A stretch of DNA of 64,000 bases, from the NCBI RefSeq assembly GCF_004353825.1, contig NZ_SMNA01000009.1:62556-126555 (forward strand). The letters run 5' to 3'. Under the pieces are notes generated by a model. It was not told the origin of the DNA. It made no database searches and was given only the letters and a program-made list of their open reading frames with translations. This DNA is from Occultella glacieicola (lineage in GTDB: Bacteria > Actinomycetota > Actinomycetes > Actinomycetales > Beutenbergiaceae). A program made the translations under genes and the position numbers. Below, one piece after another: positions 3,877 to 28,868 of this stretch; the first letter of the stretch is position 1; each line of letters opens with the position of its first letter.

Positions 3877-4073
3877 GTCATCTCCTTGCGGCTGGTCGAG
3901 CCGGTCGTTCCTCCGGCTTCGTTCCTAACCTACGTCCACTGCGGGTTCGGGGCCGCCAGGGCACGCGCGCGTCTCGTGGCCACTCCCGATCGCGCTCATC
4001 TTGCTACAGTATTAGAACCGACGTTCGAATGTCGGTGGTGGCTTCTAGCGTGATGGACGTGGGAGGAGGAACG
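3877..4073. other. Divergent intergenic region, PEBP gene / imuA'
   Basis: About 197 bp between divergent genes. It holds the ribosome binding site and presumably the promoter of the PEBP gene on the minus strand, and the LexA-box promoter of imuA'-imuB on the plus strand. No small open frame with a credible ribosome binding site was found. Confidence 0.6.
4005..4026 (+). promoter_or_regulatory. LexA-controlled promoter of imuA'-imuB
   Basis: GAAC-CGAC-GTTC at 4015-4026, followed by GA, matches the actinobacterial SOS box GAAC-N4-GTTC. A -10-like TACAGT at 4005-4010 lies just upstream, so bound LexA would cover the transcription start. It is 48 bp before the imuA' start. Confidence 0.88.
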
Positions 4074-4868
4074 ATGGCGACCACGTCGAAGTTGGAGGAT
4101 GCGCGGCGGGCGTTGGCGGCCGCGGAGACCGCTGCCGGGCTGCGGACCCAACTGCACGGGCCAACGGTTCGTGCGGTACCCGGCCCGTCCCCCACGCCCC
4201 CACCTCCCGCGCCCGCTCTCGATACCGAACGGGTGCTGCCCGTGCCGCCCGCGCTGGCGCCGTTGTTCCCCTACGGCGGGATCCGCCGCGGCACCGGGGT
4301 GCAGGTGACCGGGTCCACCTCGCTGCTGCTGCGACTCGCGGCCGCGGCCGGCGGGGCCGGTGCGTGGTGTGCGGTGGTGGCGCTGCCGGACGTGGGACTC
4401 GCGGCTGCTGCCGAGGCCGGCCTGCCCCTGGACCGGGTGGTCGTGGTGCCCCGGCCCGGCCCGGACTCCCCGTCGGTGGTGGGCGCCCTCGTGGACGGGT
4501 TCGACGTGCTGGTGCTGGGGGACTGCACGGCGTTGGCCGACCGGGACCGGCGGCTGCTCGCCTCCCGGGCCCGGACCAGGGGGTCGGTGCTGCTGACCAC
4601 CACGCCGTGGCCGGGATCGGAGCTCGTGCTCGACGCCGGGGACCGGGTGTGGCGTGGCGTCGGGCGTGGCGCCGGGGTGCTGCGCACCGAGGAGATCACG
4701 GTCGTGGCGTACGGGCGGGGGGTCGCGGCGGCGCGTCCGGTGCGGATCCGGATCGGTCCGGGTGGGGTGGAGACCGCGGCGCCCGAGGTGCCCGCCATGG
4801 AGGGCCCGACGGCGGAACGTGAGTTCGTCGTGCCGGTCGCCGAACGCTCGTTGGCGCAGGTCGGCTGA
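4074..4868 (+). CDS. imuA': ImuA'-like mutasome accessory protein
   Basis: A 264-residue RecA-like-fold protein of the actinobacterial ImuA' type. The N-terminal helix KLEDARRALAAAE is followed by a Pro-rich linker and a degenerate RecA/ATPase core (GGIRRGTGVQVTGSTSLLLR, then VVALPDVGLAAAAEAGL) lacking a clean Walker A. It is identified mainly by position: directly upstream of imuB with a TGATG overlap and downstream of an SOS box. In mycobacteria ImuA' and ImuB act with DnaE2 in translesion synthesis and damage-induced mutagenesis. ATG 4074 was chosen because GGGAGGAGGA ends 3 bp before it; an in-frame ATG at 4029 touches the LexA site and has no ribosome binding site. Confidence 0.85.
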   Translation: MATTSKLEDARRALAAAETAAGLRTQLHGPTVRAVPGPSPTPPPPAPALDTERVLPVPPALAPLFPYGGIRRGTGVQVTGSTSLLLRLAAAAGGAGAWCAVVALPDVGLAAAAEAGLPLDRVVVVPRPGPDSPSVVGALVDGFDVLVLGDCTALADRDRRLLASRARTRGSVLLTTTPWPGSELVLDAGDRVWRGVGRGAGVLRTEEITVVAYGRGVAAARPVRIRIGPGGVETAAPEVPAMEGPTAEREFVVPVAERSLAQVG

Positions 4869-6616
4869 TGGGCGCCGCAGAGCAGTTGCCGCCCCCGGTT
4901 GCCGGTGACGGGGCATGGCCGGCCGGGACCGTCCCGGACGGCGCACCGCTCGCCGAGTCCGCCACCCGGCTCGCGGTGCTGTGGGTCCCGGACTGGCCGA
5001 TCGCCGCCGCCGTCGCCGAGGGGCTGATCGGTGCCCACCACCGCGCGGTGCTCCACGACGGGCGGGGGGTGACGGCCGTCTCCGCGATGGCGCGTGCCCA
5101 GGGGGTCCGGCGTGGGATGCGTCGGCGCACGGCCCAGGGGCTGTGCCCGGACCTCGTGCTGCTGGCTGCGGACGAGGCGCGGGACGTGCGCGCGTTCGAG
5201 CCGCTCGTGCAGGGCGTGGAGGAGGTGGTGCCGCACGTGCAGGTGATGCGGCCCGGGGTGGTCGCCGTGGGCGCCCGGGGCCCGAGCCGGTACCTGGGGT
5301 CGGAGGAGGCGGTGGCCGAGGCACTCGTCGGAGCGGTCGCGCAGGCGAGCGGGGCCGAGGCCCAGGTGGGGATCGCGGACGGCCTGCTCGCGGCCCTGCT
5401 GGCGGCCCGCACCTCCACGGTGGTGCCTCCGGGGCGGTCGGCCCGGTTCCTGGCCCCCCGGGACGTGCGTGACCTCATCTACATCACCACCACGCGGCAG
5501 TCCCGGGCCGCCTACACCGACCTGGTGGACCTGCTGCGCCGGCTGGGGCTGAGCACCCTGGGTGATCTCGCGGCGATGCGCACGGCCCACGTGCTGCCCA
5601 GGTTCGGCGAGCTCGGGGTACAGGCGCAACGACTGGCCAGGGGCCTGGACGCCTACCCGCCGCAGATGCATCGCCCCGAACCGGACATCACCACCCACGC
5701 CGAACTGGATCCACCGGCGCAGCGCATCGACACGGCCGCCTTCGCCGCGCGTCGGCTGGCCGAGGAACTGCAGAGCAGGATGGTTCGACGCGGGGTGGTG
5801 TGCGCTCGGCTGCGGGTCTCGGCCCGGGCGGACAACGGCGCCGAACTGGTCCGCACCTGGCGCATCGACGGGGCACTGACCGCCACCGAGTTGACCGACC
5901 GGGTGCGATGGCAGCTGGAGGGTTGGCTCAGTGGCCGCAGCGGACGCCCACCGAGCGCCCCGCTGACCCACCTGGAGCTGGCCGCCGAGGAGATCAGTCC
6001 GGCGGCCGCCGTCCAGGACGGGCTGTGGGGGCGGGTCGGGCGCGGTCAGGTGCAGGCCGACCGGGCCGTGCTGCGGGTGCAGGGGCTGATCGGAGCGGAA
6101 GGGGTGCTGTCCCCGGTGCTGGAGGGCGGGCGGTCACCCCGGGACCGGGTGCGCCTGGTGGCCTGGGGGGACGAGTTGCGCCCGCTGCGCGATCCCGACG
6201 CGCCGTGGCCCGGGCAGATCCCGCGGCCGCTGCCCGCCACCGTGCCCGCCGAGCCGGTGCCGGCCCGGCTCGTGGACGCCCAGGGGGATCCGGTGCGGGT
6301 GGGCCGGCGCGGCGAACTCGAGGGCGATCCCGCCCTGGTGGACGTGCGCCGCCGCCCGTCCCGGCCGGCAGAGCCCGGAACACGTGGCGCGGGTTCTGCC
6401 CATCAGGCCCCGGGACCAGCAGGACCAGCACGGCGCGCCGGGCCGACGGGACTCACCGGGCAGACCATCACCGGATGGGCCGGGCCATGGCCGGTGCACG
6501 AGCGGTGGTGGTCCGGCACCGAGCCACGTACGTACCTGCAAGTGGTCACCGAGGGAGGTGCCCTGCTGCTGGCGGGGGAGGGCGGCCGGTGGTGGGTCGA
6601 AGGAGTCTATGACTGA
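4868..6616 (+). CDS. imuB: ImuB, catalytically inactive Y-family polymerase homologue
   Basis: A 582-residue Y-family DNA polymerase relative. The palm strand that carries the catalytic DxD in active enzymes reads RLAVLWVPDWPIAAAV, so the metal-binding acidic residues are missing; that is diagnostic of ImuB, which acts as the hub linking DnaE2 to the beta clamp. The fingers motif (MARAQGVRRGMRRRTAQ) and the helix-hairpin-helix region (LRRLGLSTLGDLAAM) are present, followed by a long little-finger and C-terminal region. ATG 4868 overlaps the imuA' stop (TGATG). dnaE2, the usual third gene, is not adjacent here but begins at 16857. Confidence 0.92.
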   Translation: MGAAEQLPPPVAGDGAWPAGTVPDGAPLAESATRLAVLWVPDWPIAAAVAEGLIGAHHRAVLHDGRGVTAVSAMARAQGVRRGMRRRTAQGLCPDLVLLAADEARDVRAFEPLVQGVEEVVPHVQVMRPGVVAVGARGPSRYLGSEEAVAEALVGAVAQASGAEAQVGIADGLLAALLAARTSTVVPPGRSARFLAPRDVRDLIYITTTRQSRAAYTDLVDLLRRLGLSTLGDLAAMRTAHVLPRFGELGVQAQRLARGLDAYPPQMHRPEPDITTHAELDPPAQRIDTAAFAARRLAEELQSRMVRRGVVCARLRVSARADNGAELVRTWRIDGALTATELTDRVRWQLEGWLSGRSGRPPSAPLTHLELAAEEISPAAAVQDGLWGRVGRGQVQADRAVLRVQGLIGAEGVLSPVLEGGRSPRDRVRLVAWGDELRPLRDPDAPWPGQIPRPLPATVPAEPVPARLVDAQGDPVRVGRRGELEGDPALVDVRRRPSRPAEPGTRGAGSAHQAPGPAGPARRAGPTGLTGQTITGWAGPWPVHERWWSGTEPRTYLQVVTEGGALLLAGEGGRWWVEGVYD

Positions 6617-15891: not shown

Positions 15892-16778
15892 CGTCCGGCC
15901 CGGCGCCCGTGCGTGGCATCCTCTCCTCCGCGGACTGGCGACACTCCGCGACCCGGCGGACCTGGCGCCTGCTGCATGCTGTGCTGTTCGCGGGCCTGGT
16001 CGCGTTCGGCGCCCTGCCCCTGGTCTGGATGTGGCGGGCCTCGATCTCGAGTACCGCCGACCTGGTGCAGCGTCCGCTCGCCCTGTGGCCGGACCCGGCC
16101 CGGTGGAGCAATCTGTATGACGCCTGGAGCCTGCTCGGGATCGACAGATATCTCCAGAACACAGTGGTGCTCGTGGCCGGCTCGTGGCTGGTCCAGCTGA
16201 TCGTCGCGACCACGGCGGGTTTCGCGCTCGCGGTCATCCGGCCGTGGTTCGGCAGATTCGTCTACGGAGCGCTGCTCGCCACCTTGTTCGTTCCGGGCAC
16301 CGTCACGCTGATCGCGCTCTACCTCACGGTGCTCGACCTGCCCGGACTCGGGATCTCGATCGCCGACACGCCGTGGGCGATCTGGCTGCCGGCCGGGGCG
16401 CATGCCTTCAACGTGCTGCTCGCGAAGCAGTTCTTCGACGCGATCCCCAGGGAGCTCTTCGAAGCGGCCCAGGTCGATGGCGCGGGGTGGCTGGTCGTGT
16501 TCCGTCGGCTGGTGCTGCCGATGTCGCGCCCGATCCTCGCGGTGATCTCGCTGCTGGCCATCATGACCGCGTGGAAGGACTTCCTCTGGCCCCTCGTCGT
16601 GCTCTCGGACCCCGCCCAGCAACCGCTCGCGGTCGCCCTGCCTCGCTTGGCCCAGAACACCGATCCTGCCTACCTGGTCGCCGGTCTGGTCATCGCCAGC
16701 GTTCCGCCCTTGGTGATCTTCCTGATCTTCCAACGGCAGATCGTCAGCGGTGTCGGCTGGAGCGGGCTGAAGGGGTGA
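15888..16778 (+). CDS. Carbohydrate ABC transporter permease (MalG-like)
   Basis: A 296-residue permease with about six transmembrane segments. The EAA loop reads FEAAQVDGAGWLVVFRRLVL, followed by PMSRPILAVISLLAIMTAWK and the conserved DFLWPLVVL. The N-terminal LPLVWMWRASISSTADL matches MalG-type permeases. It pairs with the MalF-like subunit, with which it overlaps (ATGA at 15888-15891). It is the last gene of the uptake operon and is followed by a strong hairpin terminator. Confidence 0.91.
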   Translation: MTSGPAPVRGILSSADWRHSATRRTWRLLHAVLFAGLVAFGALPLVWMWRASISSTADLVQRPLALWPDPARWSNLYDAWSLLGIDRYLQNTVVLVAGSWLVQLIVATTAGFALAVIRPWFGRFVYGALLATLFVPGTVTLIALYLTVLDLPGLGISIADTPWAIWLPAGAHAFNVLLAKQFFDAIPRELFEAAQVDGAGWLVVFRRLVLPMSRPILAVISLLAIMTAWKDFLWPLVVLSDPAQQPLAVALPRLAQNTDPAYLVAGLVIASVPPLVIFLIFQRQIVSGVGWSGLKG

Positions 16779-16784
16779 CCGGCT

Positions 16785-16829
16785 GAGCAGCGGCGGGTGC
16801 CGGCATGGTCGGCACCCGCGATGCTGCTC
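16785..16829 (+). terminator. Hairpin terminator of the carbohydrate ABC operon
   Basis: An inner 10-bp perfect stem GCGGGTGCCG / CGGCACCCGC (16793-16802 and 16810-16819, loop GCATGGT) is extended by an outer 7-bp stem GAGCAGC / GCTGCTC (16785-16791 and 16823-16829) across a small bulge. There is no T-run, as is usual in high-GC actinobacteria. It isolates the operon from dnaE2. Confidence 0.75.
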
Positions 16830-16843
16830 TGCCGACCGCGAGG

Positions 16844-16862
16844 TAGGATCGAACGTATGTTC
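16844..16862 (+). promoter_or_regulatory. Leaderless dnaE2 promoter with LexA box spanning the start codon
   Basis: TAGGAT (16844-16849) is a good -10 box, and the ATG begins 8 nt later at 16857. GAAC-GTAT-GTTC (16851-16862), flanked by TC and GT, is a near-perfect SOS box that physically includes the ATG. Transcription should begin at or next to the ATG, giving a leaderless mRNA directly blocked by LexA. Confidence 0.88.
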
Positions 16863-19800
16863 GTCTCCGGTTATGCCGAGCTGCACGCCCACTCGGCGTT
16901 CAGCTTCCTCGACGGCGCCAGTCAGCCCGAGGAACTGGCGATCGAGGCGGCCGGGCTCGGCCTGTCCGCGATGGCGATCACCGATCACAACGGGCTCTAC
17001 GGGGTGGTCCGGTTCGCCGAGGCCGCCCGCACCCTGAAGCTTCCCACCCTGTACGGGGCGGAGCTGAGCCTGGACGCGCCGGTGCGGCCGACCGGGATGC
17101 CGGACCCGCCGGGCACCCACCTGCTCGTGCTGGCCCGTGGGGCCGAGGGGTACCGGCGGCTGTCCCGGTCCATCGCGAACGCCCACCTGGCCAGCGGGAA
17201 GAAGGGGGAGGCGCACTACCGGCTCGGTGAGCTCGCGGACCTCGCCGCCGGGAACTGGCTGATCCTCACCGGCTGCCGCAAGGGCTCCGTGCGCCGTGCC
17301 CTGGAACCCGAACCCGGCCGCTTCGACCTGGCCGCGGCACGCCGGGAACTGGACGTGCTGACCGACCACTTCGGTGCGGAGAACGTGGTCGTCGAGATCA
17401 CCGACTCCGGGGCGCCGCTGGACTCGGTGCGCTGCGACGCGCTCGCCGAGCTCGCCGCGGACGCCCGGCTGCCGGTGGTCGCCACCGGGGCGGTGCACTG
17501 CGCGAGCCCGGCGGACCAGCCCCTCGCGGACGTGCTGGCCGCGGTGCGCGCCCGCACCACGCTGTCCGAACTCGACGGCTGGCTCCCGCCCAGCGCCGCC
17601 CATGTGCGCGCGCCGGCGGAGATGTACGCCCGGCACGCCTCCCGCCCGGAGGCGGTCGCGATGAGCGTGGAACTGGCCCGCCAGTGCGCGTTCGATCTGC
17701 GCCTGGTGGCGCCGAACCTGCCCCCGCACCCGGTGCCGCCCGGGCACACCGAGGCCACCTGGCTGCGCCACCTCACCTACGAGGGGGCCCGGGACCGGTA
17801 CGGCCCGCCGGAGGCGCCGCGGCAGCCCGGCGCGTACGCGACGATCGAGCGGGAGCTCGACATCATCATCGACCTGGACTTCCCCGGGTACTTCCTGATC
17901 GTGCACGAGATCGTCGACTTCTGCCGGCGCCACGACATCCTCTGCCAGGGCCGCGGCTCGGCCGCGAACTCCGCGGTCTGCTATGCCCTCGGGATCACCG
18001 CCGTCGACGCCGTGCAGCACAAGCTCCTGTTCGAGCGGTTCCTGTCCCCGGGCCGGTCCGGCCCGCCGGACATCGACGTGGACATCGAGTCCCGGCGCCG
18101 GGAGGAGGTGATCCAGTTCGTCTACGAACGCTACGGGCGCACCCACGCCGCGCAGGTGGCGAACGTGATCTCCTACCGGCCGCGGTCGGCGATCCGGGAC
18201 GCCGCCAAGGCGTTCGGCTACGACGTCGGGCAGCAGGACGCCTGGTCCAAGGGCATCGAACGGTGGGGCAGCCTGCGGCCGAGCCCGTCGCCCGACGATA
18301 CCGGCGGCACCGGCGAGCGGATCAGCGAACTGGAGCGCCGCCGTCGGGACGGGCCGTGGACCCCGAGCGCGGAGGTGGTCGCCGCCTCCGACGGCGCGAC
18401 CGGCGGCGGCGACCTCGACGGCATCCCCGCCGAGGTCGTGGACATGGCCGAGCGGATGCTGCGCCTGCCCCGCCACCTCGGCATCCACTCCGGCGGCATG
18501 GTGCTGTGCGACCGGCCGGTCATCGACGTGTGCCCGGTGGAGTGGGCGACCATGCCCGGCCGCACGGTGCTGCAGTGGGACAAGGACGACTGCGCCGATG
18601 CCGGCCTGGTGAAGTTCGACCTGCTCGGCCTCGGCATGCTCACCGCGCTGCGGCTCGCGTTCACCTGGATCAGGGACATCGAGGGCGTGGACGTCGGGCT
18701 GCACTCGCTGCCGCAGGAGGACCCGAAGGTCTACGACCTGCTCTGCGCCGCGGACACCGTCGGGGTGTTCCAGGTGGAGTCCCGGGCACAGATGGCCACC
18801 CTGCCGCGGCTGCAGCCGCGCACGTTCTACGACATCGTCGTCGAGGTCGCGCTGATCCGCCCCGGACCGATCCAGGGCAACTCGGTGCACCCCTACATCA
18901 ACCGGGCCCGCAAGCGTGAGCCGGTCACCTACCTGCACCCGCTGCTCGAACCGGCCCTGGCGAAGACGCTCGGGGTGCCGCTGTTCCAGGAACAGTTGAT
19001 GCAGATCGCGATCGACACCGCGGACTTCACCCCGGCCGAGGCGGACCAGTTGCGCCGGGCGATGGGGTCGAAGCGGTCCCTCGAACGGATGGAGGCGCTG
19101 CACGGGCGGCTGCTGGAGGGGATGGCCCGCAACGGCATCGACCGCCCCACCGGGGAGGCGATCTTCGACAAGCTCAAGGCGTTCGCCGACTTCGGGTTCC
19201 CCGAGTCGCACGCGTTCTCCTTCGCCTACCTCGTCTACGCGAGCGCGTGGCTGAAGGTGCACCACCCCGAGGCGTTCTACGCAGGGCTGCTCGCGGCGCA
19301 GCCGATGGGGTTCTACTCGCCGCAGTCGCTCGTGGCCGATGCCCGACGGCGGGGGGTCCGCGTCGAGCGCGCGGACGTCGCCTTCTCGCAGGTACAGGCG
19401 GGCGTCGAACGGGTCGACGGCGGGGGGCTGGCCGTGCGGCTCGGGCTCGCCCCGGTCCGGGGGATCGGTCAGAAGGGGGCGGAGCGGATCGTCGCGGCCA
19501 GGGAGGCCGCACCGCTGCGCGACCTCGCCGACCTGGCCCGCCGGGTGCGACTGTCCGCCGCCCAGCTCGAGGCGCTCGCGACCGCCGGGGCGCTGGACTC
19601 CTTCGGGCACTCCCGCCGGGAGGCGCTCTGGCTCGCCGGCGCACTGGCGGGGGAGAGCGGTACCTCCACCGTGGTGCGCACGGGCGACGGGCCGGCGGTC
19701 CGGGCCGTGCAGGAACCGCTGCCGTTCACCGCCGTCGGTATCGACCTGCCCAACCTGCCGGGCATGGACGAGGTGACCACCGCCGTCGCCGACGTCTGGG

Positions 19801-20177
19801 CCACCGGGATCTCCACGGACTCCTTCCCGACCGAGTTCCTGCGCTCCGACCTGGACGCCCGCGGGGTGCTGCGGGTGACCGACGTGCCCGGCGCCGGATC
19901 GGGCACCCGGGTGCGGGTGGCCGGGGTGGTCACCCACCGGCAGCGCCCGTCCACGGCCGGTGGGGTGACGTTCCTGTCCCTGGAGGACGAGACCGGCCTG
20001 CTGAACGTGATCTGCACGCAGGGGCTGTGGGGCCGCTACCGGAGGGTCGCCCGGACCAGCGCCGCCCTGGTGGTCCGGGGCACCGTGGAGACCGCCGACG
20101 GCGTGACCAACCTGATGGCGGACTCGGTCACGGCGCTGAGCCTGCGGGTGGCCTCCACCTCCCGCGACTTCCAGTGA
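16857..20177 (+). CDS. dnaE2: Error-prone DNA polymerase III alpha subunit DnaE2
   Basis: An 1106-residue C-family polymerase. The N-terminal PHP domain begins YAELHAHSAFSFLDGASQPE; the palm carries the catalytic acidic cluster GPPDIDVDIESRRREE and, downstream, GVFQVESRAQMATLPR and PGPIQGNSVHPYINR; then the helix-hairpin-helix part (PVRGIGQKGAERIVAAREAA) and a C-terminal OB fold (TRVRVAGVVTHRQRPSTAGG, FLSLEDETG). It performs translesion synthesis with ImuA' and ImuB during the SOS response. The start ATG 16857 is fixed by the leaderless promoter and by the conserved FVSGYAELHAHS start. It is separated from imuA'-imuB by about 10 kb. Confidence 0.95.
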   Translation: MFVSGYAELHAHSAFSFLDGASQPEELAIEAAGLGLSAMAITDHNGLYGVVRFAEAARTLKLPTLYGAELSLDAPVRPTGMPDPPGTHLLVLARGAEGYRRLSRSIANAHLASGKKGEAHYRLGELADLAAGNWLILTGCRKGSVRRALEPEPGRFDLAAARRELDVLTDHFGAENVVVEITDSGAPLDSVRCDALAELAADARLPVVATGAVHCASPADQPLADVLAAVRARTTLSELDGWLPPSAAHVRAPAEMYARHASRPEAVAMSVELARQCAFDLRLVAPNLPPHPVPPGHTEATWLRHLTYEGARDRYGPPEAPRQPGAYATIERELDIIIDLDFPGYFLIVHEIVDFCRRHDILCQGRGSAANSAVCYALGITAVDAVQHKLLFERFLSPGRSGPPDIDVDIESRRREEVIQFVYERYGRTHAAQVANVISYRPRSAIRDAAKAFGYDVGQQDAWSKGIERWGSLRPSPSPDDTGGTGERISELERRRRDGPWTPSAEVVAASDGATGGGDLDGIPAEVVDMAERMLRLPRHLGIHSGGMVLCDRPVIDVCPVEWATMPGRTVLQWDKDDCADAGLVKFDLLGLGMLTALRLAFTWIRDIEGVDVGLHSLPQEDPKVYDLLCAADTVGVFQVESRAQMATLPRLQPRTFYDIVVEVALIRPGPIQGNSVHPYINRARKREPVTYLHPLLEPALAKTLGVPLFQEQLMQIAIDTADFTPAEADQLRRAMGSKRSLERMEALHGRLLEGMARNGIDRPTGEAIFDKLKAFADFGFPESHAFSFAYLVYASAWLKVHHPEAFYAGLLAAQPMGFYSPQSLVADARRRGVRVERADVAFSQVQAGVERVDGGGLAVRLGLAPVRGIGQKGAERIVAAREAAPLRDLADLARRVRLSAAQLEALATAGALDSFGHSRREALWLAGALAGESGTSTVVRTGDGPAVRAVQEPLPFTAVGIDLPNLPGMDEVTTAVADVWATGISTDSFPTEFLRSDLDARGVLRVTDVPGAGSGTRVRVAGVVTHRQRPSTAGGVTFLSLEDETGLLNVICTQGLWGRYRRVARTSAALVVRGTVETADGVTNLMADSVTALSLRVASTSRDFQ

Positions 20178-28265: not shown

Positions 28266-28868
28266 ATGCAACCGGTGCCGGGGGAACGAGAGCCCCTCGG
28301 CGGCGGTCCGACCCCGGACGAGCCGACCGAGTTGGCCGAGCTGCTCCGTCGGAGCGCGCGCGGGGACGAACACGCGTTCGCGCGACTGTACGACAGCACG
28401 TCGGCGCGGGTCTTCGGCGTCGTGGTGCGTGTGGTGCGTGACCGCGCCCAAGCGGCGGAGGTGACCCAGGACTGCTACCTGCAGGTGTGGCAGCAGTCGG
28501 CGCGGTTCGATGCGGCCCGCGGCTCGGTGCTCGCGTGGATGCTCACGCTGGCCCACCGACGCGCGGTGGACCGGGTGCGCTCGGCGCAGGCCGCCGGAGC
28601 GCGAGACGCACGCTACGCCGTGCGTGAGCCAACCCAGGAGCGCGATGTCGGCGAGGCGGTCGTGGACAAGTTGGAGGCCGAACGTGTGCGTAAGGCCCTG
28701 GGGACCCTGACCGGGATCCAGCGCGAGGCGATCGAGCTCGCCTATCTGGGTGGCTACACCCACACGGAGGTGGCCGGCCTCCTCGACATCCCGCTCGGCA
28801 CGGCGAAGACTCGGCTACGGGACGGACTGATCCGGCTACGAGACCATTTCGGGGGTGAGAGGCGATGA
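28266..28868 (+). CDS. sigK: ECF RNA polymerase sigma factor, SigK-like
   Basis: A 200-residue ECF sigma factor. Region 2: ELLRRSARGDEHAFARLYDS and VTQDCYLQVWQQSARFDA; region 2.4: GSVLAWMLTLAHRRAVDRVR. Region 4: LTGIQREAIELAYLGGYTHT and the recognition helix around IPLGTAKTRLRDGLIRLRDH. The sequence is closest to the actinobacterial SigK group, controlled by the membrane anti-sigma factor RskA. ATG 28266 is preferred over the in-frame ATG 28254 because the latter lies inside the -10 box. The stop overlaps the anti-sigma start (ATGA at 28865-28868). Confidence 0.9.
   Translation: MQPVPGEREPLGGGPTPDEPTELAELLRRSARGDEHAFARLYDSTSARVFGVVVRVVRDRAQAAEVTQDCYLQVWQQSARFDAARGSVLAWMLTLAHRRAVDRVRSAQAAGARDARYAVREPTQERDVGEAVVDKLEAERVRKALGTLTGIQREAIELAYLGGYTHTEVAGLLDIPLGTAKTRLRDGLIRLRDHFGGERR

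Follow-up and report, generated by a model that had tools for sequence, protein, structure and literature searches.

Operators are usually seen as upstream DNA that carries no coding constraint, and the LexA operator of actinobacteria has the consensus TCGAAC-N4-GTTCGA, with which the boxes found here in relatives agree. In phage lambda, repressor operators lie beside the leaderless start of cI. The leaderless cI and cro mRNAs of phage PY54 likewise have repressor operators beside their starts, but OR3 is upstream of cI and the accessible text describes no operator with the AUG inside it (PMC4488713). The leaderless ruvB of D. deserti (RDR regulon) has a damage-repressor motif over its promoter and a transcription start at +1, although the repressor there is DdrO and the 17-bp motif, according to the accessible part of the report, starts at -35 and ends before the start codon (PMC5552922). 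Within the LexA system, the translation start of M. tuberculosis lexA was shown to coincide with its transcription start, making it a leaderless gene as we predict for the dnaE2 described below, but a start codon inside its SOS box is not stated in the sections available (PMC2897130). In S. venezuelae, dnaE2 is under LexA with the same box type, including a GTAC half-site, yet no box in Table 1 of that partly accessible report, which covers selected genes, holds a start codon: the nearest upstream box begins at -14 and another lies at +91 (PMC9380542). The phylum is rich in leaderless genes (PMC3160421, PMC3898074). In the accessible text of these two reports, leaderless genes of Actinobacteria are recognised by a TANNNT whose first T lies about 12 bp ahead of the start (PMC3160421), whilst in M. 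tuberculosis TANNNT precedes 73% of primary start sites and, of the genes that have such a site, 26% are leaderless (PMC3898074). No SOS box containing a start codon is described in the open-access literature among the matches listed; leaderless SOS genes are known already, and, measured against these partly accessible sources, the operator that supplies the start codon is the new element.

Mycobacterial-type dnaE2 loci resemble the present one in that, of 30 with a LexA box, 19 have a TANNNT directly behind it and an in-frame start 4-8 nt later, a layout which suggests that these genes are probably leaderless too. They differ in that the box sits just upstream of the -10 element, starts ca. 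28-30 nt before the start codon and is off the coding sequence. This contrast, with the box on the other side of the -10, is a natural experiment on how operator position bears on repression and induction of a mutagenic polymerase.

The window, the whole 64,000-nt stretch of Occultella glacieicola DNA that was analysed, holds a dnaE2 gene whose start codon lies inside a LexA-type box, together with a second such box at its partner genes:

16844..16849, forward strand: -10 element TAGGAT (TANNNT), its last T common to the 16-bp operator; T-13, A-12 and T-8 each in 15 of 17 aligned rows
16849..16864, no strand assigned: predicted LexA operator TCGAACGTATGTTCGT, 11 of the 12 defined bases of the consensus
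16857..16859, forward strand: dnaE2 ATG start codon and predicted (leaderless) transcription start, from sequence and family comparison
16857..20177, forward strand: dnaE2 (imuC), error-prone DNA polymerase III alpha subunit, 1106 aa, NF004225
15888..16778, forward strand: sugar ABC transporter permease, upstream neighbour of dnaE2, from ORF call and profile match
4013..4028, no strand assigned: second strong LexA-type operator TAGAACCGACGTTCGA, in front of imuA', match of at least 11 of 12
4029..4868, forward strand: imuA', NF058630 (152.7 bits, cut-off 65)
4868..6616, forward strand: imuB-like Y-family polymerase with an ATGA overlap with imuA', PF00817 (48.6 bits, cut-off 23.2)

The 21 bp from 16844 to 16864 read TAGGATCGAACGTATGTTCGT. 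The operator core GAAC-GTAT-GTTC spans 16851-16862 with its dyad between 16856 and 16857, and because TAGGAT ends 7 nt before the ATG, the predicted leaderless transcript would have the dyad between its -1 and +1 positions. The first-pass annotation had placed the hexamer, the core, the ATG and the 7-nt gap at exactly these positions and had put the start codon inside a LexA-type box of dnaE2; re-reading the sequence bore this out, the ATG lying within the 11 of 12 match and the polymerase being identified by its NCBIfam profile (1426.3 bits vs. a cut-off of 939). The protein begins Met-Phe-Val-Ser-Gly-Tyr-Ala-Glu-Leu-His, and its stop codon ends at 20177.

We consider it very likely that 16844-16864 is an all-in-one SOS start site for a leaderless dnaE2 under LexA; from the sequence, its conservation, the -10 spacing, the presence of lexA in the genome and the coding consequence, all of them observed, we infer the 5' end, LexA binding, induction and leaderless translation. 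The housekeeping sigma factor would read TAGGAT as the -10, RNA polymerase would start at the A of the ATG to give a dnaE2 mRNA that has no leader, and the ribosome would load on its 5'-terminal AUG. A LexA dimer bound to the palindrome, which spans -8 to +8 around the start point, would touch the -10 and block initiation until DNA damage brought about RecA-stimulated self-cleavage of LexA, which would free the site and allow DnaE2 to be made. The operator would thereby supply the dnaE2 start codon and set the first codons (ATG TTC G..), which DnaE2 may tolerate, the segment ahead of its PHP domain being a variable tail. If true, one palindrome is read by repressor, RNA polymerase and ribosome, so that substitutions in it could be scored for three functions at once.

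The regulator itself is encoded in the genome: lexA matches TIGR00498 at 240.4 bits (cut-off 110.95), has LexA-type sites upstream of it, and its protein has LexA relatives among solved structures. Boxes of this kind exceed chance in the window, where GAACNNNNGTTC cores number 4 against 0.50 expected (0 of 100 shuffles reach 4) and 16-mers matching at least 11 of 12 bases number 2 against ca. 0.13 expected, a value from 30 Markov sequences that is a lower bound owing to the prefilter. One of these two 16-mers is at dnaE2 and the other at imuA'. Two further LexA-like cores, one with 10 of 12 bases inside an ORF at 28366-28381 and one, GAACGTGAGTTC, inside imuA' at 4815-4826, are probably there by chance. 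The ImuA'/ImuB partners at 4029-6616 lie ca. 10 kb before dnaE2 and are not adjacent to it, i.e. the three-gene cassette is split. By its sequence context, imuA' is more likely to start at the ATG at 4074, behind the strong ribosome site GGAGGAGG at 4062-4069. Since imuA' has a box with a strong ribosome site and dnaE2 a leaderless-type start, the two layouts seem to coexist in this one mutagenesis cassette, with imuA'-imuB leadered and dnaE2 leaderless.

The -10, box and ATG of dnaE2 are at the same place in 4/4 genomes of the genus, and among 23 readable dnaE2 5' ends in a family sample of 24 genomes (the 5' end of G006 was off its contig) 13 have the box and 10 do not. The box holds an in-frame ATG in 10 of the 23 (G000-G003, G005, G012, G014, G016, G019, G020); in three more (G015, G017, G021) the -10, box and ATG are kept and mini-ORFs of 19, 12 and 12 codons, respectively, start at this ATG, their TGA overlapping the dnaE2 ATG. 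The overlap is thus present in close relatives, the point on which the first-pass annotation had proposed an alignment. The nearest named relative is Ruania albidiflava (Ruaniaceae), with 77% identity in the best DnaE2 segment. Amongst the loci that have no box, an imuB-like ORF ends beside the dnaE2 start in G004, and in G011 dnaE2 lies behind a gene which itself starts with the -10/box/ATG block and matches HNH weakly, at 22.2 bits against a cut-off of 21.4. Where the upstream ORF of a no-box locus was scanned (n = 4), PF00817 was found in three (Demequina L009, Actinotalea L007 and G004), where the end of an imuB-like gene thus adjoins dnaE2; the upstream ORF of G010, cut by the locus end, gave no PF00817 match.

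On a wider scale, 149 genomes of the order were sampled; 75 had DnaE2 at E <= 1e-150, and 64 of these belong to other families. From the 64, 61 dnaE2 5' ends were obtained (G141, G154 and G156 were absent), 60 of which could be anchored (L193/G029 had no anchor). These 60 were searched for boxes of at least 10 of 12 bases at most 330 nt from the anchor. The overlap at dnaE2 was found in one other family, f3, whose eight genomes in the sample comprise three with an in-frame start in the box, one mini-ORF, one leadered gene with a box and three with no box. G057 has TATAATCGAACATATGTTCGATTATAG with the ATG in frame (MFDYSELHAH), whilst G041 and G072 have in-frame starts in the same place, TTG and GTG respectively, with the -10 at 6 nt; with their half-site GTAC they were not flagged by the box search and were caught by eye and by pattern. 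In G151 a 7-codon mini-ORF overlaps dnaE2 by GTGA, as does another of 7 codons in G288, an f3 genome outside the 149 that came from an order-wide pattern search. In G086 an AGGAGG and a separate ATG come after the box, as in a leadered gene; G025, G099 and G125 have no box at dnaE2. The 52 ends from other families contained no box of at least 10 of 12 within 330 nt, with the exception of G043, which has a weak box at -328. Of the 60 readable dnaE2 of other families, 56 do not have the overlap; together with the 10 of 23 family ends that have no box, this rules it out as a general feature of dnaE2. At the G057 dnaE2 start (L191/L204) the block forms a perfect 26-bp palindrome, TATAATCGAACATATGTTCGATTATA, so that the opposite strand, too, has a -10, box and ATG; the ORF from this mirrored block reads MFDYR only.

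Aligned on the in-box start, all 17 rows have the half-sites G(A/T)AC and GT(T/A)C, and TANNNT occurs exactly 7 nt before the start in 14 and 6 nt before it in two, G012 having CATACT. G017 is not among these rows, having AAAC as its left half-site, though it has TAGAAT 7 nt before the ATG. The relatives' hexamers at this place are TAGAAT, TATAAT, TATGCT, TACACT, TATACT, TACAAT, TACGCT and CATACT. No -35 element was seen, no column from -50 to -14 exceeding 11 of 17 rows. Within the window, TANNNT stands 6 or 7 nt before an in-frame ATG or GTG in 10 of 34 matches (spacings 0-39, 42 crudely called ORFs), with 6 matches at 6 nt, 6 at 24 nt and 4 at 7 nt, so that window-wide support is modest because the 24-nt spacing is as common as the 6-nt one. 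Near the first possible start of three ORFs (39579, 40831 on the reverse strand, and 46426), TAGGGT is followed after 6 nt by GTG, a leaderless-like arrangement.

The hexamer can also be read in another way, as its AGGA lies 8 nt before the dnaE2 ATG and could be a weak Shine-Dalgarno sequence, with a GAGG 13 nt before the ATG. Together with the same-strand ORF that ends at 16778, this is what speaks for a leadered dnaE2, transcribed from an upstream promoter or by read-through from the sugar transporter, in which AGGA is the ribosome site and the box is off the transcription start. We regard this as unlikely: the relatives keep TANNNT but lose the AGGA, and the ORFs upstream of dnaE2 differ within the genus (G001-G003, by crude ORF calls). 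A ribosome site would hold purines at this place, which the relatives do not, and since TANNNT is kept at a fixed distance whilst its inner bases and upstream flank are not, the -10 fits better; the Shine-Dalgarno sequence was dropped as the main reading of TAGGAT on the loss of AGGA.

The box could be a LexA site in which the ATG arose by chance, spacers ending in AT being tolerated or preferred, with translation from the GTG at 16797 or the ATG at 16821. Upstream in-frame starts are indeed present in G000, and of the 79 loci L006-L084, 30 have a distal dnaE2 box that matches 11 or all 12 bases; 9/30 of these boxes hold an ATG at the same place that is not used as a start. Against this, G002 and G003 have no other in-frame start between the upstream stop and the ATG, which rules out the two upstream starts, and the ATG is present in 15/17 proximal boxes vs. 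9/30 distal ones (Fisher p 0.0002, on rows that are related and a proximal set partly picked by having a start codon there); we give this explanation very little probability. Equally improbable in our view is that some other regulator binds the palindrome, or that it is a functionless relic, for which the 101 GAACNNNNGTTC sites in the whole genome could be cited, since LexA fits the 12-base consensus as well as the finding that two families conserve the box at dnaE2 and that imuA' and lexA have it too. The GTAC half-site, moreover, has a counterpart in a validated LexA site of S. venezuelae, as listed in Table 1 of the partly accessible report (PMC9380542). As the distal boxes show, an ATG belongs in part to the operator itself, and a promoter whose start point lies on the dyad can adopt it.

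Under the preferred reading, a LexA-controlled leaderless start, the operator should leave its mark on the protein. TTC comes directly after the start codon (Met-Phe) in 13/13 in-frame box rows, whereas in the other dnaE2 rows (n = 70) 0 in-frame ATG, GTG or TTG candidates have a Phe codon next, so the operator writes the second residue of DnaE2. The first-pass annotation had held that the coding sequence is constrained by the box, and on this comparison of rows we take the constraint on the dnaE2 start to be real. The mini-ORFs concern the ribosome: in 5/5 cases (the three in the own family, G151 and G288) the stop of the mini-ORF and the start of dnaE2 share an ATGA or GTGA, against a null, from shuffled intervals and frames, of 0.025-0.037 per case. 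The product of 2.4e-8 overstates the case because three of the five are from one genus; three independent cases would give ca. 3e-5 by arithmetic. Such coupling of stop to start is as expected if ribosomes begin at the box ATG.

The block is also found at other genes. Across 396 genomes of the order, TANNNT-N-GNAC-NN-ATG-TTC is present in 121 and a form spaced 4 nt wider in 27, whilst the reversed patterns at the two spacings occur in 12 and 13 of the 396. All four exact TANNNTNGNACNNATGTTC sites in the own genome open ORFs of at least 273 codons, namely dnaE2, two DUF222 genes (a Pfam domain of unknown function) and one relative of these (54% identical across 218 positions). The right half-site of another DUF222 gene is GTAC. 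ORFs that reach 100 codons begin at 24 of the 40 sites fetched from other families (L266 is cut by a contig end) and at 18 of the 32 in a second set (L220 is cut). A Pfam scan of 12 block-started proteins gave six DUF222, one HNH, one Y-family polymerase, which is polymerase IV-like (dinB-like), and one AlkB-kind 2OG-Fe(II) oxygenase, with no Pfam match in the remaining three. ORFs that begin in a LexA-type box also precede ruvA (TIGR00084 in 3/3 scanned: L207, L208 and L251), the boxes lying 7 nt after TANNNT (L207-L210 and L212 in f3, L251 in family f4). These ORFs read MFARVRG and similar, with 80 codons in L209, or MFHFEKEFR with an ATGA overlap in L251. They are mixed in how they end, overlapping the next start in L251 and L208 and stopping short of it in L207 and L212.

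On balance, we favour the view that the 21-bp cassette TANNN-TCG(A/T)AC-NN-ATG-TTCGA is reusable and has spread at unrelated damage genes of this taxonomic order, i.e. dnaE2, DUF222/HNH, dinB-like, alkB-like and ruvA genes. In such a cassette the -10, operator dyad, transcription start and start codon would be one object with LexA exactly on +1; where the frame has moved, it would persist as a leaderless mini-ORF which an ATGA or GTGA couples to the actual gene start, and the operator AUG would be selected for ribosome loading, beyond mere tolerance. As a rule this would aid gene-start calls and point to damage-controlled genes in the order, including those with DUF222.

The in-box ATG is not always a gene start, because some sites have no ORF and some read Met-Phe-stop; the ORF-less sites and the distal boxes with an ATG rule out that every in-box ATG is a start. 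At L249 and L250 (f4), for example, TAGAATCGAACATATGTTCTAG reads Met-Phe-stop and the ATG is no useful start. L136 (G000:C20:342179) is a DUF222-like gene with the block that stops at 273 codons vs. >500 in its relatives, possibly a broken copy. A small protein family with PPGWP, PP and LLD motifs starts in the block in several genomes (L232-L236, L245, L267, L268), and the one member scanned (L233) had no Pfam match. Six f17 genomes (G137, G163, G231, G296, G358 and G367) share the conserved sequence TACGATTT(C/G)TAGCAC(G/A)(G/C)ATGTTC, which has the wider spacing.
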